DNA of 64,000 nt from Ceratobasidium sp. AG-K (taxonomy: Eukaryota; Basidiomycota; Agaricomycetes; Cantharellales; Ceratobasidiaceae). A program made the translations under genes and the position numbers. The DNA lies in the NCBI GenBank assembly GCA_037039685.1, contig JAWNGF010000001.1, positions 6,634,001 to 6,698,000 on the forward strand, read 5' to 3'. Shown piece by piece: positions 1-40,300 of this stretch. Numbering within the stretch: the first letter of the stretch is position 1; each line of letters opens with the position of its first letter. The notes under the pieces were generated by a model, which saw only the letters and a program-made list of their open reading frames with translations, did no database searches and was not told where the DNA came from.

Positions 1-2566
1 ACCTGCTGTTGAAAGTTGTTCCTCTGTCCGAAACTGTACTTTGTGGGAAGCCATGTAATCTCCAAACGTTTTTCAGGAAAAGGTCGGCTAGTTGATCTGC
101 AGTTGTTGATTCTTTGCAGGCTATGAAGTGTGCCATGCGGGAGAACCAATCTACTACCACTAGAATGCTGTCATTGCCTTGTGATTTTGGGAGTTTTACG
201 ATGAAATCGTATGCAATATCCTCCCATGGGCTGTTCGGGATTTCGAGTGCTTTCAGTGGTACTTGGTTTTTTGTTCCTTTTGCCCTTTGGCACTGCTCAC
301 AAGAGTCAACGTATTTGTTTACTGTTGCCTTAAGCCCCGGCCAGTAGTATTTTCTTGAGATTAACTCTAGCGTTCGGGCTTGACCCTGGTGTCCTGCCAT
401 TGGTGCATCGTGGTGTAATCTGAGGATTTTTAGCCTAGTGTCCTTGTCTTCTGGCACGTAGATTTTCCCATCTATCCAGAGCAGGTCTTCCTCAAAGTTG
501 TAGTTCCTAATTCCTTGTTGCACAGATTTGGGTAAGGTCTCCTTGTCTTTGCACAATTCTATGATCTTCCTGATGCTCTCGTCTTCGGATTGTGCTTCCC
601 TAATGTCCGCAATGATGTCTGACTTGACTTCTCCGGCGAATCCCCTGAACTGTTCCTCCTTGATCATGATTTGCTCTGCTGTTGGTATTTTGCTATGATC
701 CGCTCTTCTGGACAGTAAGTCTGGCTTTGTTGACATGTTCCCCGGATGGTAAACTATTTCAAAGTTGTAGGAAGCCAGGATTTGATGCCATAGAGCGTGA
801 CGTCGGTTAAATGTAGTTGCCTTCTTCCAGTATTGCAGGTTACGGTGATCGGTGTAGATTGTTATTGGTTCTCTTGTTCCTTCTAAATGTAATCGCCAGT
901 GTTTTAGTGATTCCACAATAGCCATCAATTCCTTGTCATGAACATCGTAGTTCATTTGTGCAGCATTAAAGGATTTTGATAGGAAAGCGATGGGATGTAA
1001 GTAACCGTCGTCTTGTCTTTGAGAGAGTATTGATCCCATAGCAATGCCGCTTGCGTCGGTTTCCAATATGTAAGGTTTTGTTGGGTCTGGATGTCGCAGT
1101 AGTGGTTCCTTGCATATTTCCTTCTTCAGGTTATCGAAAGCCTCCTGTTGTTCTGCTTCCCATTTCCATTTCTGGTCCTTCCTTGTTAGAACGGTTAAGG
1201 GTTTCGCCAGGCCGCTAAAGTTTGGTACGAATCACCTGTAAAAGTTTGCAAATCCTAGGAAGGCTTGGACCTGTTTGACTGTCCTTGGCTCCTTCCATTC
1301 CTTGATTGCTTTGACCTTTTCCTCTTGCATTGATATTCCTTCCTCGCTGATATTTATTCCTGTGTAGACAAGTTTTTTGACGAAAAATTCGCATTTTGGG
1401 AGTTTTGCAAAGAGGTTGTTGTCCAACAGGATTTTGAGTACCTTTCGAACATCCTCCACATGTTGGCTTTGGTCTTTGGAGAAAATTAATATGTCGTCGA
1501 TGTAAACAATGACACAGATGTCAATCAGGTCGTGGAAAATATGATTCATATATTGTTGGAATGTTGCCGGCGCATTTTTCAATCCGAAGGGCATGACGAT
1601 ATATTCGAACAGGCCTTCCTTGGTTCGGAATGCTGTTTTCCATTTGTCTCCTTCTTTAACTTGGATGTTGTTGAACCCCATACGCAAGTCTATTTTACAA
1701 AAGATTTTTGCGTCCTTGATCTTGTCAAGGAGATCTTCCATTAGTGGCATAGGGAAGCAGTCGTCTTTTGTTATTTTGTTGATCGGGCCGAAGTGTTGAA
1801 CCAACCTGAGCTCTGGAGGTTTTTCTGGGTCCTTTGGGTCTTGTCCCTTTGTGACAAAGAAGGTTGCTGCGGCTACTGGTGACTTGCTTGGTCGGATTTT
1901 GCCTGCCGCTAGTTCCTCATCTAGGTACTTTCTGAGGGCTATGGATTCTGCGGGTGAGAGTGGGATTGGCCTAGCGGGTTTAGGAAGTTCTGCTCCTTCC
2001 ACTAGATCGATGCAACAGTCGTATGGGCGATGGTCCGGTATCCGTTTAAATTTTTCCTCGCTAAAGACTTCTGCATAATCTTTGAATTCTTCGGGTATGT
2101 CTTCGATTTCTGCGGCTTTTCCAAGGATGTTGTCTGGTCGCCAGGAAATTTCTTTTGATAGCCAATCAATTATTGGATTGGCTTCCTCTAGCCATTCTAA
2201 CCCCAGAATCAAGTGTGTATCTCCAGTAGGCATGGCAAAGAAGTTTTGCTTGAAGTTTTTCCCATGTAACTCGAATTCTAGATTTGCTTTGAATTGGATT
2301 TGATGTGACAGTTCCTTCCCTTGGATTCCAATACTTTTTCTAGGTGTTGGCAGTTCAATAAGAGCCACATTGTTTCTTCGTGCCCAAGTGATGTCAATGA
2401 AGTTCCTTGATGCTCCTGAGTCAATGAGAGTAGCGATGGGTTCCGTGATTCCAGTAATATTTGTGTAGACAATTGTTGATTCGCTGGTAGCTCTAAGGTA
2501 CATTGTTTCCATTACTGGTTCGTTGGTCTCTCCACACACAGTTAGAGGGAGACCTCGCCTTTTCCC
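1..2566 (-). pseudogene. Pol polyprotein (protease, RT, RNase H, integrase) of gypsy element, one in-frame stop, partial
   Basis: It begins in the -1 frame relative to Gag. The aspartic protease motif LIDSGAS appears first, followed by reverse transcriptase with the catalytic box VIVYIDDILIFS. TGA at 1232-1234 interrupts the conserved FANFYR-(Arg)-FVPNFS stretch at the RT end, again where CGA would give Arg. The same frame then stays open to the left edge. It encodes RNase H (ETDASG, YDVHDKELMA, TDHRNLQYW), the HHCC integrase zinc finger (LRLHHDAPMAGHQG and CEQCQRAKG) and the start of the integrase core (VSDRGTTF). The last catalytic Glu and the C-terminus lie outside the window. Confidence 0.9.
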
Positions 2567-4539
2567 AATTCGGATTGCTCTTCTATTTTTCCTTCCCTTC
2601 CTTTGAGGTTAGGTTCCTCCTTTTTCCATTCCTTCTCCGGGCATTTGGCAAGCATGTGTTTGTCTGATCCGCATTTCAGGCAATGTTTCGAGGAAATCCT
2701 AGCCTTGTAAACCTCGTCTGGAAGTCTTTTTGTAGAGCTAGAGGATGCTGTTACTGTTTTCTTCCCGGTCGTGTTCTTGATTGCTTGTAGTTTCTGATCA
2801 ATAGAGATTGCGATTGATATCCATTGGTCAAGGGATAATTCTCGTTCTGTCCCATCTTTGTTGATCAGGGTTAGTTCAAAACAAGCCAGTTTGGTTTTGA
2901 CTTCAAGCTTCAACCCTTCCTTGAATTGGTTGATCAGAGCTTCCTGTCCCCAGTTTACGTCTACCAGAAGGTATCGGAATTCCGAAGCATAGTTTGCTAC
3001 CGAGTTGGTCTGTTTGCATTTTCGGATGTCTGATTCGGCTTTAGCTTTTTTGTTAGGGTCGCTGAACTGTTCCATGAAGTGTGCTTTGAAACTCTCCCAT
3101 GAGGCAAGATTTTGGTTATTTCCTCCTTTGTTAAGCAATCGTAAGAGTACTTGTGCCCAGTGGGTGGCAGGTTTGTTCTTGGATTTGAAGTTTGCTAGGG
3201 CTTCGCGGATCCTTTCTTCGTCAGAAGTGTATTGATCGCCTAAACGTACGAAGTAACTCTCCATTTGCGTAATGAACATTTTGGCGCCTTCTCCCTTTTT
3301 TCCGTCGAAGGCTTCCGGACAAGTAACCTTAGGACGACGCGGTCCACTACCGATGTTTGGGTTCTTGATCAGTTGTTGGATTCTTAGTTCTAATTCATTG
3401 ATCCTGGTAGATTCTGCATCTGGATGTGGTGGAGAATTTGATTGCCTAGACGGGATCCCGTGCAGGGATGCTTCGTCCATTTCTTCTCGCATATTGTTGA
3501 TGGTTTCCTGCACTTCAGTAATTTTGGCAGAGAAGGAAGTTCCTTCCTGTCGTAAGGTTTCTAGTCCTTGTGTTACTGCCTTGTTCCATTCGAGTTGTCC
3601 TTGTCTGGTAGTGTTGAGTTCTTCGCGCACATTGTTCACGAGTCCTTGAGTGTTGGTAACCTCATTTCGAAGGTGGGTTACGTCTTGACCGACTAGAAAA
3701 GAATTATGTTCGCCATTTCTAGCCGCGTTCAGAATGTCCGTCAAGGTGCCTTGTAGCGTGTTGATGGAGTCATTAAAGATTTGCTGGTTGTTTGCCAGGA
3801 TTTGTGTGGCTTGTTCTAGGCCGCCAAGCCTTCAATCAATAGTGACTCTCATCCCGTCTATGACCCTAAGGACAGCGTTGTGTCTTCCTTCTAGAAGATC
3901 GTCCAGATCGTCTAGATTACTGATTACGGTCCTCCTGCTGGAGCTGGAACTTGAACTTGAGCTTCCTGGATCACCAGTGTTTTGTTGTACCGGAACTGAT
4001 TGTTCTAAGTAACCCTGTGGAACATATGGTGGTGCTAGAATGGCTGGTGTGACTGGCTGGGAAGCTATTGGAATTGGTCCTGCGTTGGTGATGGTTCCTC
4101 CAATTTGAGGGACTGTGGGAACATTGGGGATGTGTGGTGTAGGGGGAGGTCTAATGGGGGCAAGCGACACGCCCCCATGAGCTTTGGGTTGGGGAGAAAA
4201 GAATTGTCTCCTAGACCCTAGTGACCACAAGGGACGCGATGGCCCTGGACTTCCGGTCGAAATACGAATTACAGCTGGAGTGGGGTCATTTGTAAGATCT
4301 CCTGGTTCTCTATTCGTGATAGTGGGTTCTTCTTCTTGTACCGTTGTAATGTCGGCAATGCCAAAAGCTCCCGGCATTGATGTTTGACTTTGTGGACGTG
4401 ATCGGGCAGGTCCTCCCGCTTGAGTTTGTGCAATATCTTGCTCGTTTAGTGATCCAGTGGGCCTTGCGGCTCGACTGGGTCCTCTTCTTGTTGCTATAGT
4501 GGATGAGGGACGTGATCCTCCATCTTCTTGAATAGACAT
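2542..4539 (-). pseudogene. Gag polyprotein of gypsy element, one in-frame stop
   Basis: The frame starts at ATG 4539 and reads a Pro/Ser-rich N-terminal region of about 235 residues, then meets TGA at 3832-3834. It resumes in the same frame with a coiled-coil-like stretch, the capsid-type region and, near the end, a CCHC zinc knuckle (CLKCGSDKHMLAKC). The stop is followed by AGG and would be Arg if it were CGA, so a C-to-T change is the simplest explanation. Gag packages the element RNA into virus-like particles. The frame ends at TAA 2542-2544, just after the -1 slippery heptamer that should give access to Pol. Confidence 0.85.
2560..2566 (-). promoter_or_regulatory. Putative -1 ribosomal frameshift heptamer G_GGA_AAA at the Gag-Pol junction
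   Basis: Read on the minus strand in the Gag frame, the codons are ttG GGA AAA, an exact X_XXY_YYZ slippery heptamer. A slip to GGG AAA continues without a stop through the Gag terminator (2542-2544) straight into the protease/RT frame. The Pol frame has no good ATG nearby, as its first possible start codon is a GTG. Frame and position agree with a programmed -1 frameshift, though I have not modelled a downstream pseudoknot. Confidence 0.7.
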
Positions 4540-5689: not shown

Positions 5690-5725
<36 letters not shown>

Positions 5726-5816
5726 TGATGATGATGATGATGATGATGGCAACGACGATAACGGTGGTGGGGATGGCAAGCAGGACAACGCCGTTGACCA
5801 CGACCATGACAGCTAG
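5030..5816 (+). CDS. Hypothetical acidic low-complexity protein
   Basis: The function is not recognised. Exon 1 runs from ATG 5030 to 5420. A 55-nt intron with a GTGAGT donor (5421-5475) restores the frame for exon 2, which ends at TAG 5814-5816. The product is about 240 residues, Ser-rich at first, then increasingly Asp/Glu/Lys-rich, with a tail of about 19 consecutive Asp encoded by a GAC/GAT microsatellite. No domain is visible. It lies between a retrotransposon and a Helitron-like border, so it may be cargo or a decayed gene rather than an active host gene. The splice model is inferred. Confidence 0.4.
5691..5748 (+). repeat. GAC/GAT trinucleotide microsatellite (poly-Asp)
   Basis: About eleven GAC units are followed directly by about eight GAT units. 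Both are Asp codons in the frame of the acidic gene, so length changes would only alter the tail length. Confidence 0.9.
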
Positions 5817-30444: not shown

Positions 30445-31713
30445 TCAGCCTATTATACCAGATAGTGAGATCCTCACAAACCTGTGTCGAGTGGTGGACT
30501 TGGGGGTGGACTATGTTGATGATACGAATACGCATGGCTGTAGAATGGCATCTTGGTGGCTTGAATAGAAAAAATACGAATAACTGAATCATTTCGCTGA
30601 CGTCAGTAGCAGTTCTCGTCTTGTTGCTCCCACACCTACCAACTGAACGCACTGAACGCAAGGTTCTGAACTCGCTCGTCGGGCTGGAGCTCTTTATACC
30701 CAAATCGAAGGCGCAAGGTAATCACGTACCCCACAAAAGAGTCGAAGAAGCCAAATTCTAATTGGCCTTTTCGCCGGAAGAACGCACGCTCGGTGACGGA
30801 TTTGGGCAATAAGTTTACGTTTTTCTCCAGCGGACATCAAACGGATCTTGTGATACTCTGAAGAGATGGTTCAATTCAGACGAACACGAGGCGATGTGCA
30901 GACATGTGCCGAGTAAGGCGGTAGTCAGGTGTCCCTTTTTGAAAATTTAAGGGCTGGGAGCTCGTTAGCATAGATTTGGTTGAAATAAAACCTGGACGTT
31001 ACGGGAGCAACATGGTGTCAGGCGCAAAATCAGCTTTGCATTTTGGCTTATATTCCACCATTCAGATTCTACCACTAGCCTCAACTATATACCTTCTTCG
31101 GGGGACCTCCGACTAGCGACCTAACATAAAGCCTTCCAGAGTAGTATTATCCCCAAGTAGGGCGAATATACCTATATTTCTGTCAGTTTGAACAGGCCGA
31201 TAATGAAATGGTAATACCGGTTAGGGGCCGACAGAGTTACATATCGGCATTTCAATTTCTTTTTGGTAGGATGGGCGACTATAGATAACTAGCCCTCATG
31301 GGATCCTCGGAGCGTGTCTCTGAGGTAGTCCATCAGCAGAAGGGCATAAATAAATACAATACAATTTAGTTCCGGATGGATAGTGGTCAAAATTGTATCT
31401 TGAGTTTGAGGTTGAGCGACTAGCTGTTTTCAGGACGAATTTACGACCCAAGTGATTGAGGGGTGGCAGGTTTATTTGAAGTGATTGTGGTCGAGCGACG
31501 ACTGTGTATCATATTTGTTCAGGCGTAAAGCGATTTCTATAACAACGGATGAGAAAAGACTGTTGCGGCATTTGTTCATCTATTCAACTGTTGGAACAAG
31601 ATTAAACGGATGGTCAGGTTGAGCGAGTAAAGGAAAACTGACCCAAACACAGATCTACTTAGTTGACCATTTTATCCAATACATTATACGCTACGTCGAG
31701 TTGGATGGTGACG
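30445..31713. other. Intergenic region, AT-rich, no gene recognised
   Basis: The right part (about 30720-31710) has no long frames. Near 30389-30703 a minus-strand frame may contain 5' exons of the preceding hypothetical gene, but it lacks a clear structure. Confidence 0.45.
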
Positions 31714-33166
<1,453 letters not shown>

Positions 33167-36100
33167 ATGTTTTCCCATCGCTTATGCATTTATCAGCGAG
33201 GATCACGGACAACTGGGGATGCTGACACGAGGCTGCCACAGGCGACAAACCACTATGTCCACGCGTTTCGCACAGTAAATGTAAGTCGAGAACGCTTCAG
33301 ATTGATAGAATGATCACAAAAATGAGTGCATGCGTTAGAATAAATATTATGACTGACATGCCAATATAATAGGGTGTAAGCCAGTTGGTTTATGCGTTAA
33401 AATCAATTAACTTATCCCGTAATTGGTTTGCGACCAAAGGGAGTGAGTAAAAGCTTCCTTATTCGGTAATCAAAGGCCTCTACTCACCATACCTATAGAG
33501 GGTGAGTGCCAAACTATGCACTCAAGCCATTTCCTAACCACTAAATCGATCGAACACACTCTCAGCTGGTAAGCACTTCAACATTTATCACGGAGTAGAA
33601 CAATAGGTGTTTAGGTACCACATGACATGAATGGTTATGAACGTAGATTGTGAGTATGATACCATCCATCTCGAATTTACAATCAACGATGTGGGAACTC
33701 TCCGCTGTAAAGTCGGTGCGATACAGATAATGTGCGCCGCGAATCGAACTAACCCAAAAGGCTCCTCGGCGTTTCCTACTATGATAGCTGGTGAGCATCA
33801 ATGTTCCTCTCGTGATTGATCTGACCTAACCTTGCTATATCGCTGGTTGCTAGCCGGTAAGACAGTCGGACTAATATTCTTGAATAGGCTCACTCTCATT
33901 TGATATAACCCCTTTCTCATAGGAAGTACGTAACTTTTTGGAGGAGTCTGAAAATAACTGACTTGAACGCATACATTGCTTACAGCGAGTAAGTAACATA
34001 TCCTCACACAATTCAACAGAAATCCATCCGTTTCCTCGCTGAATATCTTGTAGGATGTAAGTCTTGACTTGTCTAAGTTATGTTTATCTGACGGGTGCTA
34101 CTATCACATCACGCTAATAGGAGGTGAGTGTCTCTGAATATTTTCTCGCCAAGCACCGTCATATCGTCCCTGAGCCCATCTTCCATGTGACTTGAGGTGC
34201 CCAGCCAGCGCAATTCAGAGAATCTATATTCTGACTGACTATCATTTCATTACACTTTTCATTATAGATAGTAAGCCAATTGCAGTTTTCGTAAAGAGCG
34301 ATTCAATCATTGTACGGCGACGACTCGTGATTTTAGTTGTTCAAGGTAGGTAATCCACACCAAATCCAATAAGTTCAAGCCCGTCTACTAAATATTATGC
34401 TTATAGTTGGTAAGTAAATTGTCGGGCTTGTACCATTGCACTGAGGCGCGTTTGCGTGTCTGCTTGCTTATAGAGGGTGTGTTATATGTTGCGTTGACTC
34501 AGGTTTTGTTCTAATCGTATTCGGGTATAGGCCTCTAACATGAGTATACCGCCAGTCAACGCGGGGGTAAGCGATAGTCAACCCAAAAGTGCGGGATTGA
34601 TTGGGCCCAATACATCGAACCCAAATTCAACTCAAATCCGATCGAATAAACCCAAGCCAACTAGTACCACCCCAGCCAAGGTCGGATCTGCCAATTCGCC
34701 ATCTTCCGAGGTGAATCCACTCAAAATCAAGGCAAAACCGTCCAAGTCCAAGGCTTCGAATACATCCCATGGCGAACCAAAGGCTGTAATTCGCAGCGAT
34801 ACGGTGCGTTTACGCGCATATAGGTATTAATCTTGCAATTACTGAAGGAGTACAGGCATTTCTCGATATTATCCACCTGCTTGAGAAGAGTGGCTGCCCG
34901 GATCTTACGAGTCGGCTGGATCTCGGGAACTGCTCCGCATATCCTGTTTCCAACGGTGGTGCTGGAGATGTCTTTTCGGGAAAAATTGGATGATGGGACT
35001 AAAATAGCAATCAAGATTATACACGCATGCTCATCGGAAGGTCACCCCACTGGAAAATACCAGAAGGTGCGCGCGGCTCAGCTGGATAGGAAGCCACTAA
35101 TATTTCCTGCGTAGCGTGCGGCGAAAGAAATTCACGCATGGGCCAAGTGCAATCATCCCAACGTCGCGAAGCTCATGGGACTGGTGCAATTCAAGGACGG
35201 CCTAGCAATGGTTTCTAGATGGGCCAAGAATGGGAATCTCCTATCGTATCTCAAGCAAAACCCATCGGTGAACCGGTGTGCCTTGGTATGACCTCTTCAT
35301 ATGACATACGATCTTTTTATAATCCACCTGTGCGGTCTTGTGCCTCCGGTAGTGCACCTCTATCTGTGAAGGACTGGCGTACTTGCACCGAAACAATATT
35401 GTGAGTCAATCCCAGACACGCTTTGAAAGTGTCGCCGTTTAACGCCTGCGTAGGTTCATGGTGATCTCAAGGGGGTGTGTGCATATGTCCCAATGACACA
35501 GTTGCACAACTGTTGACCACTCGCCTAACTCCTAACTGCAGGCGAACGTCTTGATATCAAATGATGGAATTCCGATGCTTACTGACTTTGGGAATGCGAA
35601 CATGGCGGCTTCCACTCTTGTATTCACACAAACTGCCACCGCTGCGAGCTTTTCGTTCCGCTGGACCGTCCGTATCCTTTCACTTATTGAGATCTTTTGT
35701 TAATTAATAGTCCCAACAGGCGCCCGAGATATTTCGAGAAGGCAACAGACGTAGTACTGCCGGGGATGTATATGCGCTCGGAATGGTTGGTAGTTACCAT
35801 GCATGGATAATTCACGACGCTGATGTCCCTGCTACTACAGACTATACTGGTAGAGTCACCTTTTGGCCGTCGTGGTTCCTAGACTCAATGCAATGCCGAT
35901 AGGAAACACTCACCGGGAATGTTCCATATCCCGAGGTCAATGATATGACTATATTTTTCACGGTCATCGTCAAGCGCAAGCTACCCCAGCGGCCAGAGGA
36001 TCAGATTCCCTCGAGCAGCGTTTACGGAAATGTACTTTGGGCGCTACTTCTGAGCTGCTGGTCTTATAAATCACGCCTACGTCCAAGTGTATGGGATGTC

Positions 36101-36260
36101 AAAGACATTGTAAGTCACTTGAAATATTCGTGTGCAATGGTCTAGGATTACCTGCTGAAAACCGTGCTACTAGATGAAACAAATTACACCTGAGAAACTA
36201 CTCCCAGTTGAAGCTGATTCAGATAGCGATGACGAGACGTTGGGCATCAATCTGGGGTAA
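33167..36260 (+). CDS. TKL-type serine/threonine (or tyrosine) protein kinase with micro-exon ladder in its 5' part
   Basis: The kinase domain is clear: a Gly-rich-like GGAGDVFSG, catalytic Lys in IAIKII, SICEGLAYLHRNN, the catalytic loop VHGDLKGANVL (HGD for HRD), TDFGNAN, APEIF, DVYALGM and a terminal RPSVWDV. Larger exons are about 34531-34803, 34856 to about 35066, 35353-35400 and 35542 onward. A 9-nt exon (35841-35849) encodes Thr-Ile-Leu. TAA is at 36258-36260. The first candidate exon (33167-33280, ATG in frame, ends AAT before GTAAGT) connects to 34531 only through the ladder of 3-nt exons described separately. The N-terminal part is Ser/Pro/Lys-rich. All catalytic residues are present, so the enzyme is probably active. 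The true start is unproven. Confidence 0.82.
33281..34530 (+). other. Ladder of single-codon (3-nt) micro-exons separated by 54-144-nt introns
   Basis: Between the exon ending at 33280 and the one starting at 34531, acceptor AG, three bases and a strong donor recur in series. Micro-exons: GGT 33373-33375, GGA 33440-33442, AGG 33499-33501, CTG 33566-33568, ATT 33647-33649, TCG 33713-33715 (weaker), CTG 33788-33790, CCG 33854-33856, GAA 33923-33925, CGA 33986-33988, GAT 34054-34056, GAG 34121-34123, ATA 34268-34270, TTGTTCAAG 34338-34346 (9 nt), TTG 34407-34409 and AGG 34474-34476. Donors are GTAAG, GTGAG, GTACGT, GTAGGT, GTGTGT or GTGCGA. Most spacers are 54-78 nt. The lengths are all multiples of three, and the codons are in phase with the kinase frame. 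The long 34124-34267 spacer may hide one more step (AG/GT at 34196). Confidence 0.8.
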
Positions 36261-37331
36261 ATAAAAATTTGCGCCGAGTAGAGCTCGCAGAAAATCTCCT
36301 TGATGCCATTGTACTGAGATGTAACGCGTACCTTTCTTGTAGTTGATGTACAGTAGCTCAAAGTGCGTTGTATAACACATATCACATGAGAGCTTCTCGA
36401 TTTCTCTTTTTTGACCGTGCCTGAGTTACCTTTGTGTGGACAGTTTGTTTTCTTACTTTCTTTTCCGATCGTTGGGTCTCCGTTGACTCCGAGCGGTTTG
36501 ACCTTGTGTTCGTGTAGCTCGATAAAGATGTATTCAAAACAAAAAATTAAAATTAAAAATATCACGTGACATTTTGTCACGCCTCTTGTCAACCACTGTC
36601 GTTTGAGTGCCTCGATCCGCAAAGGTTCCCCCCACGAGGATCACGGTATTGTAGGATCGATATCTGGGTCAAGATTAACCTGTATTGAAACATTGCTTTG
36701 ACTAACGGATGCTTGCTACGGTCGCAATTGAATACTCTGCGAGCTACTCTCAGTCGAGTCGCCTTGGGTGCTGCCCCTATCGAGTAATTGAGCTATCTCT
36801 TGTTGACATCGGATCTTGCTCCGAAGCTACCAGAGTCGCCTCCTTTCGCCAGGTACGGAGGAAGAACTATTAACGCGTTCGATCGAACTTTCGCGATCAC
36901 GTGTATCATCGGCCGTTCACTCACGATCTCGACCTCGCGCCATCGATAGCTGGACCTCTGCCCTATCCATTGAAACCGATACGAATCACCCTGGAGAAGT
37001 CCGACACGATGCAGCGGGCTGGACTCGACGCATACTATGCGGTCACCCCGACATGACACCGACGTCATCTTGGCCGAGCTCAAATCCCATTCTCACGTAG
37101 GTCCAGTCGCGTTCTCACATTTTGTTTCTCACGTTGTAATTAAATTTATATTTCTGAAGGTGTCTCACGATAGTAATGTGCTCTGAGAGTACTGGGAGTT
37201 TATCTTGTTGTTGGTGGTGGTGCAGCGAGAACGCGGCATGGGCCCTGATCTGATTCCCACGCTGAGCGTTCCCACGAATCGAAGGCATTTATAGCCCCTG
37301 GCCCATAGTGCGCATAGAGACACCATCCACT
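36261..37331. other. Intergenic region between the TKL kinase and glycogen phosphorylase
   Basis: AATAAA follows the kinase stop at about 36259-36264. The minus-strand frame at 36170-36622 and the overlapping frames at 36793-37100 show no domain. A TCACGTGA palindrome near 36564 could be an E-box. The last 300 bp are probably the glycogen phosphorylase promoter. Confidence 0.45.
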
Positions 37332-40300
37332 ATGGCTCCCACCTCGCGACGCAACTCGGAATCTTTCCAGACCATCGATACCGCTGCTATCGGCAAGCCG
37401 CCTGAGAAGCAGGCGCGCAAGCACAAGCGATCGGCCACTGGTGCGCGCATATATGCTATATACATATATATGGTATTCATGTTTATATCTAGGATATATC
37501 CCCACCGCTGAGGGCGGCAAGGAGGTATGGCCGCGCGGCGACGAGAAGACTTGGAAGGCTGGTATTCGGGGTGTCGATTCGACTAGAGAGGAGATTACAA
37601 GCCACATCGTGAACCACGTCCAGACGACTATCGCTCGTCAGGCATACAACCTTGATGATGTACGTTACCCTGATCTACGAGTGATCTATGCTAATATCAA
37701 ATCGACTTTCAGCAAGGCGCGTACCAGGCTGTCGCGTATGCCGTCCGAGACGACCTCATCGTGAACGTGCGTGTTGTTTGACCAGATCAAGATCGAGATC
37801 TGAGCTGAGCTGACGCGTCCCACAGTGGAATGAAACCCAAATGAACTTTACCCGAAAGGGCCCGAAGCGCGCATATTACCTCTCCCTCGAATGGCTCATG
37901 GGACGTACACTTGATAACGCGTTGCTCAATTTGGGTCTCAAAGACAAGTACCGTGATGGCGTCAATAAGCTCGGATTCGTGAGTGCCGACCCCGCACCCT
38001 ACCCCACACCGAATCTGATCGCTCCTTTCCTCCCACGTGATGTGATTTACGATAGAACTTGGAAGATCTCTTCGAGCATGAACGCGACGCTGGTCTCGGA
38101 AATGGCGGTCTTGGCCGCCTCGCCGCTTGCTACGTCGATTCGTCCGCCTCTCAAGAGCTGCCCTTCTGGGGTTACGGCCTCCGTTACCACTATGGTATCT
38201 TCCAGCAGTTGATTGCCGCCGATGGATCCCAGCTCGAAGCGTAAGTTTTATTTCCGATGCACTTTACAAGCCTTCCCGTCTATCCATCATCTATCTTCAT
38301 CCGTTTATGGACTAACACTGCTTTTCTCAAAGTCCTGACCCATGGCTCAACCACGCCAATGCCTGGGAAATCCCCCGTTATGACGTGACCGTCGATGTTC
38401 GGTTCTATGGTCAGGCTGAGCGCATCGGAAACACTGGACGCGCAACTTGGAGCGGTGGACAGGAAGTCGTTGCTGTCGCGTATGACGTTCCGATTCCAGG
38501 ATATTCGACCAAGAACACCAACAGTACGTTACTCATTTTACGTAGATTCGTATTTGCGACCAATCATTGATCGTAGATCTGCGTCTTTGGGATGCTCGCG
38601 GAAAGTCTGGATTCGATCTTCAATCCTTCAACGCTGGCGACTACGAAAAGTCCGTCGAGTCGTCCAACTCTGCCGAGAACATTACTCGTGTCTTGTACCC
38701 GAACGATAATCACATGGTCGGAAAAGAGTTGCGCTTGAAGCAGCAATATTTCTGGTGTGGTATGTGAGATCCCGTTAGCCTGTCGGCGTATCTTTCTCAC
38801 ATTTTCTGTAGCTGCCTCGTTGTCCGATATCCTACGTCGTTTCAAAAACTTGGACAAGCCTATTAATGAATTCCCAGACTTTGTTGCAATCCAGCTTAAC
38901 GATGTGAGCACTTGCCTGCCTTGGTTGGGTTCACATTACTGAGATTAGGTTTAGACACATCCCACGCTTGCTATCCCTGAGTTGATGCGCATTCTCATTG
39001 ACGAGGAGGAGATTACATTTGAACAGGCATGGGACATCACGACCCGGACTTTTGGATATACCAACCATACCGTCCTGCCGGAAGCTCTCGAGGTACAGGA
39101 TTGTGTTCATCAGAGCGATATGTTATGCTGACTACTCCTTGGTAGAAATGGCCCGTTCCACTTTTGCAACACTTGCTCCCACGTCACATGCAGATCATCT
39201 TTGACCTTGTAAGCCCTTTCACTGACCCTTAAGATTTACAGACTTATATCCCCCTTTATAGAACTTCCGGTTCCTCAAGCAAGTCGAGAAGAAGTTCCCA
39301 GGAGACCGTGAGAAGATCGAGAGGTTGTCGCTGATCCAAGGTCGGTGTTTTCCCCACTTTATCCATATTAGGTTACAAATGCGAGTAAAACAGAGGGGTA
39401 CCCCCAGTATGTCCGCATGGCCAATCTGGCTGTCATCGGTTCGCGCAAGGTGAACGGTGTCGCCGAGCTCCACTCTGAACTCGTCCGCACTACAATTTTG
39501 AAGGACTTTGTCGACTTCTATGGCGCTGAAAAGGTGCGTTGGCTCTCACAGCCCCCGCTTACTAAACACTTATCTGGGACCCTTAGTTTGGCAACGTTAC
39601 CAATGGTATCACTCCTCGTCGCTGGCTGGACCAGTGTAATCCCGCACTAAGCAATCTCATTACTGAGACCCTCGGCGGCGACAAGTCTGCGTGGCTCAAA
39701 GATCTCTACAAGCTTAAGGGTCTGCTTAAGCATGCCGATGATCCAGCGTTCCAAGCCAAGTGGATGGCTGCCAAGCAGAAGAATAAGGAGCGTCTGGCTC
39801 ACTACGCACGCGAGACTTTGGGCGTAGAGGTCGACACCAAGAGCTTGTTCGATGTTCAGATTAAGGTATGTTCTGCTCGTGTTGTTATTGTACTAATTCT
39901 GATACGCCACGGCGAATAGCGTATCCATGAGTACAAGCGTCAAACCCTGAACATCTTTGGGGTGGTTTACCGGTACTTGAGGCTCAAGTCGATGACTCCC
40001 GAGGAGCGAAAGAAGCAGCAGGCTAGGACTAGCATCTTTGGTGGCAAGGCTGCTCCCGGATACTACATGGCCAAGCTCGTGAGTTAAAATCTTGGCCTTC
40101 GATTACCTGGTGTGCTCACTGTACGCTTAGACAATCCGTTTGATCGTCAATGTTGCCAAGGTCATCAACTCGGATCCAGACATGAAGGGATTGTTAACTG
40201 TTATCTTCTGCCCTGATTACTGTATGTCGCTTCTGGGGGTTGGAAGAGCAATCAGTTAACCTTGGACTCAGCCGTCTCGCTCGCCGAGATTTTGATCCCT

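Follow-up and report, generated by a model that had tools for sequence, protein, structure and literature searches.

In the genome of Ceratobasidium sp. AG-K (53.6 Mb, 17 contigs), a 64,000-nt stretch of contig C1 (C1:6634001-6698000, hereafter the window) contains a protein kinase gene whose 5′ part is broken into a ladder of consecutive 3-nt exons. We read this ladder, with a probability of about 0.7 and judging from the DNA sequence, as a run of real, translated single-codon exons that would form the N-terminus of a TKL-like kinase and whose units would multiply, diversify and decay. Ladders of 3-nt exons were also found before twelve other kinase genes of this genome when paralogous kinases were examined, a comparison proposed in an earlier note on the same DNA.

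The ladder in the window

Direct reading of the window gave fifteen acceptor-NNN-donor steps at 33373-34476 (+ strand) and one 9-nt exon at 34337-34345, in the order GGT GGA AGG CTG ATT TCG CTG CCG GAA CGA GAT GAG ATA (TTGTTCAAG) TTG AGG. The earlier note had described about fifteen 3-nt exons and one 9-nt exon, in phase 0 and running without a stop into the kinase frame. Direct reading, a strict splice pattern and a chain finder all confirmed the ladder; its triplets contain no stop and continue in frame into the exon at 34531, and the frame joined from a proposed 39-nt upstream exon, the ladder and 34531-34803 stays open to its end.

The strict pattern ([CT]AG, exon, strong donor) was tried at exon lengths 0-30 and matched inside the ladder 13 times at length 3 and once at length 9, with no match there at the 29 other lengths; at length 3, the remaining window held five matches on the + strand and six on the - strand. 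The chain finder, a dynamic programming procedure that allows exons of 1-12 nt, scored the ladder at 57.3 against 7.8 for the best of 60 Markov shuffles and, with the window cut into 4-kb tiles, found no chain of at least three in the other 31 of the 32 combinations of tile and strand. A chance origin, which the note had also dismissed, is ruled out by the strict-pattern counts and the chain-finder shuffles.

The introns had been described as mostly 54-78 nt long with branch motifs, and this held in part: the ladder introns measure 54-92 nt, plus a single one of 144 nt, and 11/18 introns of the whole window model have a branch-like YTRAY at a distance of 12-50 nt from their 3′ end (6.6 in shuffles, p 0.03), so that seven introns lack such a motif. 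The donors had been called strong; the TCG exon, however, has a weak one (GTGCGA), and the acceptors of GGA and TCG are AAG. A dimer covariance model, once built, recovers pieces of the ladder, which by its sequence displays the runs of tiny exons in symmetrical phase that characterize micro-exon genes. The window gene model comprises the following features.

33162..33164, + strand: proposed start codon ATG (by analogy), with donor GTATGT directly after
33165..33241, + strand: proposed intron 1, 77 nt (GTATGT...CTGAC...ACAG)
33242..33280, + strand: proposed 39-nt exon ATNHYVHAFRTVN, open and in phase 0 into the ladder; the frame is open further upstream too
33281..34530, + strand: whole ladder (17 introns, fifteen 3-nt exons, one 9-nt exon)
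33373..33375, + strand: 3-nt exon GGT (Gly)
33440..33442, + strand: 3-nt exon GGA (Gly), acceptor AAG
33499..33501, + strand: 3-nt exon AGG (Arg)
33566..33568, + strand: 3-nt exon CTG (Leu)
33647..33649, + strand: 3-nt exon ATT (Ile)
33713..33715, + strand: 3-nt exon TCG (Ser), acceptor AAG, weak donor GTGCGA; passed over by the chain finder
33788..33790, + strand: 3-nt exon CTG (Leu)
33854..33856, + strand: 3-nt exon CCG (Pro)
33923..33925, + strand: 3-nt exon GAA (Glu)
33986..33988, + strand: 3-nt exon CGA (Arg)
34054..34056, + strand: 3-nt exon GAT (Asp)
34121..34123, + strand: 3-nt exon GAG (Glu)
34268..34270, + strand: 3-nt exon ATA (Ile)
34337..34345, + strand: 9-nt exon TTGTTCAAG (Leu-Phe-Lys)
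34407..34409, + strand: 3-nt exon TTG (Leu)
34474..34476, + strand: 3-nt exon AGG (Arg), donor GTGTGT
34531..34803, + strand: first long exon past the ladder (ASNMSIPP...), in frame; alternative start ATG at 34540
34856..36260 (approximate, by eye), + strand: kinase-domain exons

The ATG at 33167 that had been proposed as the start sits inside the donor GTATGT, and the ATG at 33162-33164 appears the better candidate for the 5′ end of the model, by analogy with the ATG found directly before GT in six paralogs when read by eye (L052, L053, L056, L057, L039 and L054). In L052, L053 and L056, an initial 4-nt exon is readable by eye (AATG, followed by GT); in L055, no such start arrangement was seen by eye. 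The kinase part itself matches PF00069 (E 4.2e-32, 112 bits, cut-off 31.7) and PF07714 (E 1.5e-29, 103.5 bits, cut-off 23.1); these Pfam families are the assignment computed here, while TKL-like is a label that we presume to apply. Among the best 120 of 326 protein matches of this gene, the top 20 are 41-63% identical to it, 16 of them from Ceratobasidium or Rhizoctonia solani.

Ladders and intron-plus-codon arrays in the kinase family

We read 13 distinct ladder genes (the window gene, L039, L048-L055, L056, L057 and L066), plus near-identical copies. Ladder-like pairs of 3-nt exons were present on the sense strand at 21/30 loci around kinase matches (several loci per gene). In L039 and L048-L055, which were picked for a previously seen ladder, match to an array or close kinase, the chain finder returned chains of 20-49 microexons in regions of 5-8 kb. 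Exon length in the other ladders is mostly 3, the few chain exons of 2, 4, 7, 10 or 11 nt being probably miscalls or phase changes, and the loci scanned on both strands contained no comparable chain on the opposite strand. Genome-wide, the pattern TAGNNNGTRAGT matched 786 times on both strands and TAGNNNNGTRAGT 581 times; reversed-pattern controls gave more matches in each case (1132 and 1166), so that we draw only on the contrast between lengths 3 and 4. Among the matches listed (C1 up to 2.96 Mb), the dense TAGNNNGTRAGT groups are kinase loci with ladders, at 190-192k, 210-214k, 227-229k, 233-236k, 239-242k, 264-266k and 363-364k of C1.

At four of the loci, exon and intron together form tandem units of high identity, 68 bp long in L039 and L054 and 112 bp long in L048 and L049. 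L039, upstream of a paralog at C1:210k, has ~46 tandem units, mostly of 68 bp (a 65-bp intron plus one codon), and an array peptide rich in Glu, Arg, Ala and Leu, whose composition may resemble that of a coiled coil; L054 (C1:189501-194500) carries the second array of 68-bp units, at C1:190-192k. No tandem repeat was found in the window ladder, which thus does not qualify as an array of this kind. The earlier statement that the spacers are unalike and form no simple satellite is therefore correct for the window but not for its paralogs, which carry a literal tandem repeat of near-identical introns, and this changes the likely origin of the ladder.

Within the arrays, variation is concentrated on the codon. 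The mean pairwise difference at codon positions 1/2/3 was 0.54/0.68/0.48 in L049 (vs 0.006 in the intron body), 0.71/0.54/0.49 in L048 (vs 0.044), 0.64/0.68/0.32 in L039 (vs 0.205) and 0.73/0.69/0.45 in L054 (vs 0.125). Positions 1 and 2 were more variable than any intron position in all four arrays; position 3 ranked 17th in L039, 7th in L054, first (tied) in L048 and 4th in L049. The L049 figures (C7:1071001-1076000) partly reflect two linked intron 3′-end forms: the last ~nine bases of the 109-nt intron occur in two main forms linked to the next codon, so the variable cassette there is ~12 nt rather than 3, and higher-order duplications mean that the units are not independent.

Pairs of units whose introns are nearly identical (0-1 differing sites) have the same codon more often than pairs overall (L039, 6/7 vs 94/703; L049, 36/92 vs 44/231; L048, 7/11 vs 22/91; L054, 1/2 vs 18/153), suggesting that the codon travels with its unit and arguing for tandem duplication rather than for insertion of introns between old codons. 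Such an insertion, in which an introner-like invasion placed mobile introns between the codons of a pre-existing ordinary exon and the old protein sequence was kept, would account for near-identical introns with unrelated codons as well as for alike ladder peptides in paralogs, and introner-like elements are reported in fungi (PMC4457414). Nevertheless, it would require a spacing of exactly 3 nt tens of times over, it does not predict that codon identity tracks intron identity or that higher-order duplications bring codons along, and a DNA search with one query from the 68-bp array (which skips very common words) matched only two neighbouring arrays, at C1:190-192k and C1:210-213k. We consider an invasion of this kind quite unlikely.

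Near-identical gene copies reveal how the arrays and ladders change. One gene is present as the two copies L048 and L069, whose flanks agree to 99.67% over 899 upstream bases and to 99.79% over 1931 downstream bases; the 112-bp arrays of these copies contain 17 and 24 units, respectively, with differing codon orders and with the codon CTT in one copy only, and a global alignment has 5/124 exon and 35/3338 intron sites differing, with 704 gapped columns. In two other copy pairs, the older ladders have stayed stable (0/212 exon vs 68/4667 intron sites differ). The window gene itself lies in a segmental duplication of ~9 kb (window 31003-40000), with copies at C1:360501-369500 (99.8%) and C6:3120501-3129500 (99.4%); three intron sites and no exon sites of the ladder differ among the three copies, and a one-base length difference breaks the frame in the first kinase exon of the window copy, where the other two are open. 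Four further kinase locus pairs are 98.4-99.9% identical.

The introns of L052 and L055 are decayed yet still recognizable relatives of the 68-bp unit (z 2.28 +- 0.49 and 1.32 +- 0.32, respectively). Those of the window reach z 0.89 +- 0.31, compared with -0.16 for reversed window introns and 0.15 for ordinary kinase introns, which is suggestive of an old, decayed array.

Probable translation of the triplets and competing explanations

The 375 three-nt exons of the 13 loci include a single in-frame stop, whereas column-preserving shuffles predict 16.6 (p <= 2e-4); when concatenated, the same exons have 20 stops in the +1 frame and 27 in the +2 frame. By type (374 exons), 3.8 TAA, 2.3 TGA and 10.3 TAG were expected, and 0, 0 and 1 were observed. 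As array units are related to one another, the nine loci without a young array form the cleaner set; their 240 exons contain no stop, and the other frames contain 18 and 17.

Some of the ladder peptides are also alike. Comparison of 12 peptides yielded 9/66 pairs at p < 0.01 against residue shuffles, headed by L053/L056 (z 8.0), L048/L049 and L048/L050 (z 5.8). The introns of L053/L056 are weakly above shuffle level in their similarity (mean z 1.41) and those of L048/L050 are at shuffle level (0.46); taking both pairs together, 22 codons were compared, with 12 differences at position 1, 4 at position 2 and 10 at position 3. Stop depletion across 13 loci, together with alike peptides despite poorly aligning introns, indicates that the triplets are very probably translated codons, which supports the proposal that each step of the window ladder is a frame-neutral single codon and extends it to the gene family. 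In protein searches, the L050 ladder region returned no candidate and full-length queries matched kinase parts among the matches listed; ten ladder-derived peptides matched no Pfam family above cut-off.

The exons that follow the ladders provide a further test of phase. In L048, L049, L050 and L051, read by eye up to that point, the last microexon is followed in phase 0 by a 12-codon exon that is similar among them (FLRNNPTMTLSE, FLRRNPTMTLNE, FLEKNKSMEMSE and YQKKNPDITFSK, respectively), and L066 has FMHDKPNATLDK at the matching place, again running on from its ladder in phase 0. The post-ladder exons of L039 and L055 have lengths divisible by 3, show no stop when read on from the ladder and finish with VTSHL ahead of the kinase; in L039, the kinase exon is also in the matching phase. 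Separately, a public contig of 828 nt carries P0129, a 220-aa uninterrupted open reading frame that shares 97% identity with the L050 kinase across 31% of the query. This contig probably represents a transcript of the present organism or of a very close one and, covering the kinase part and not the ladder, suggests that the L050 kinase is transcribed.

These data bear directly on the possibility that the ladder belongs to a 5′ untranslated region or is never transcribed, that the kinase starts at the ATG at 34540 and that the 3-nt exons are a splicing curiosity. That ATG is in frame and nine bases into the post-ladder exon, several relatives begin shortly before the kinase domain, the window peptide is without a detectable homologue, and the post-ladder exon of L053 (C1:238001-243000) has its own ATG and fits the kinase frame solely out of ladder phase. 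The contrary evidence comes entirely from paralogs and consists of the depletion of stops in the exon frame over 13 loci, the lower rate of change at codon position 2 in paralog pairs and the phase-0 run-on in L039, L048-L051, L055 and L066; on balance, we regard an untranslated ladder as unlikely.

Recursive splice sites have an acceptor and a donor that almost adjoin, and the nearly back-to-back sites of the ladder resemble them, which could mean that the triplets are relay points for the stepwise removal of one long intron, as the earlier note had suggested in the alternative. We disfavour this ratchet and judge it highly improbable: the exons of the window ladder keep to a length of 3 rather than 0, as do most of those in the other ladders, stops are avoided in the exon frame, codons are more alike than introns between some paralogs, and a total of 1.25 kb hardly calls for a relay. 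Stwintrons were also considered and rejected, each intron of the model having its own donor and acceptor, 3 nt apart.

Alternatively, the ladder may be mainly regulatory, with each extra intron cutting the yield of productive mRNA or with triplets skipped combinatorially to vary the N-terminus, the latter an idea of the earlier note. The lengths are compatible with such a role, in that skipping an exon would cost one residue and retaining a unit intron would shift the frame, since 65 and 109 nt are not multiples of 3. As this leaves both the excess of codon variation over intron variation and the alike residues of paralogs unexplained, we think it decidedly unlikely as the main role.

Several further results weigh, with the L053 exon, against our reading of the triplets as translated codons in multiplying and decaying units. 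The support for every ladder comes from genome sequence; array units are related, so that their counts are not independent; and the sole in-frame stop, a TAG, lies in the L054 array (18 regular units), for which a pseudogene, a skipped exon or readthrough are candidate explanations. A strong acceptor after the L052 ladder puts the phase wrong, and L054 and L057 gave no clear phase call from ladder to next exon. Two alignment modes detected no significant similarity between the window ladder peptide and six others (p 0.13-0.74), the best p of the window peptide in the 66-pair comparison was 0.18, and ladder peptides gave nothing convincing against the 145 annotated or predicted relatives that were listed (best E 0.018 and 0.038). 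A likeness between the window and L056 peptides, noted by eye, found no support in shuffles. Ladders were absent from the 1.5-kb flank at 9/30 kinase-match loci and from 10/13 further upstream regions, the other three being L056, L057 and L066, of which L056 and L057 already had genome-pattern matches. Exons of near-identical copies are not significantly more conserved than introns (p 0.12), the old ladder codons of the more distant pair L048 and L049 change more than the introns (raw counts 7/33 vs 87/755), and window introns are no closer to the 68-bp unit than those of L048-L051 and L053 (0.10 to 0.77). The evidence that the window ladder is coding is indirect and draws on the paralogs, its own 15 codons, with no stop, being too few to decide.

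Two features of the window outside the kinase gene were also recorded: positions 1-4000 have a strong AT skew (-0.28) that differs from the remaining window, and positions 5691-5748 consist of perfect triplet runs, GAC then GAT.

A proposed mechanism and its relation to known systems

If the ladders are translated single-codon exons, their units would multiply by unequal exchange or slippage. Neither 68 nor 112 bp is a multiple of 3, yet the gain or loss of such a unit would change exactly one residue without a frameshift, because splicing removes all of it but three bases. Codons would then diversify faster than the surrounding introns, through selection on the N-terminal segment or a codon-biased process, and in an ageing array the introns would diverge until the AG-NNN-GT spacing alone remains, as we propose for the window ladder. 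Splicing would probably remove the introns one after another, by intron definition, as simultaneous binding of both splice sites flanking a 3-nt exon is hardly feasible. The most likely role would be that of a fast-evolving, length-tunable binding or coiled-coil segment that chooses the kinase partner.

More tentatively, at somewhat less than even odds, these arrays may represent a new kind of coding repeat, namely a satellite with a spliceosomal intron as its unit and a single hypervariable codon as its payload. Through unequal exchange, it would serve the kinase family as a diversity generator that alters the protein in single-residue steps, and the payload would be subject to diversifying selection or to a codon-targeted process. 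If true, runs of up to ~46 one-codon exons would represent extreme exon fragmentation and would test the spliceosome on exons too short for both splice sites, and introns would be the backbone of a fast-evolving protein repeat. Tiny exons are easily overlooked by aligners and gene finders, and N-termini in these fungi may therefore be unannotated; a study of plants reports the same oversight for tiny exons there (PMC8831610).

The earlier note knew of no array of single-codon exons of this length, and in agreement with this, we found no array of single-codon exons described among the records listed from the open-licence PMC literature (titles and abstract openings; subscription journals lie mostly outside it). 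The design would thus be new, on condition that RNA confirms it. The exons of aphid bicycle genes and of schistosome micro-exon genes exceed one codon. Both groups nevertheless share with the kinase ladders many small same-phase exons in fast-evolving protein families; the bicycle genes are micro-exon families and, unlike the kinase ladders, show no intron-plus-codon satellite in the part of the source available (PMC9168663).

Closest in architecture are the Tetrahymena LRR genes, which are built of tandem exon/intron units with 90-bp exons for which unequal crossing over was proposed, the youngest lying in pericentromeric and subtelomeric regions and some being fused to a protein kinase among other domains (PMC6564038). 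Repeated exon/intron units of one exact exon length and one phase are common to both systems. There, however, the 90-bp exon is the protein repeat, whereas here the exon is one codon and the intron is the conserved part. The introner-like elements (PMC4457414) and stwintrons (PMC8469720, PMC9024468) of fungi resemble the kinase arrays in comprising, respectively, multi-copy near-identical spliceosomal introns and very close or nested introns; in the portions of these sources consulted, and in contrast to the arrays, they are dispersed or nested and carry no tandem one-codon payload. Finally, the single microexon of Drosophila homothorax (PMC7392893), the two 3-nt exons of the fungal lipS gene (PMC5639578) and the 1-nt exons of plants (PMC8831610) indicate that spliceosomes are able to include exons no longer than 3 nt. 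Those cases involve one or two such exons, whereas the kinase ladders comprise runs of 15 to ~46.

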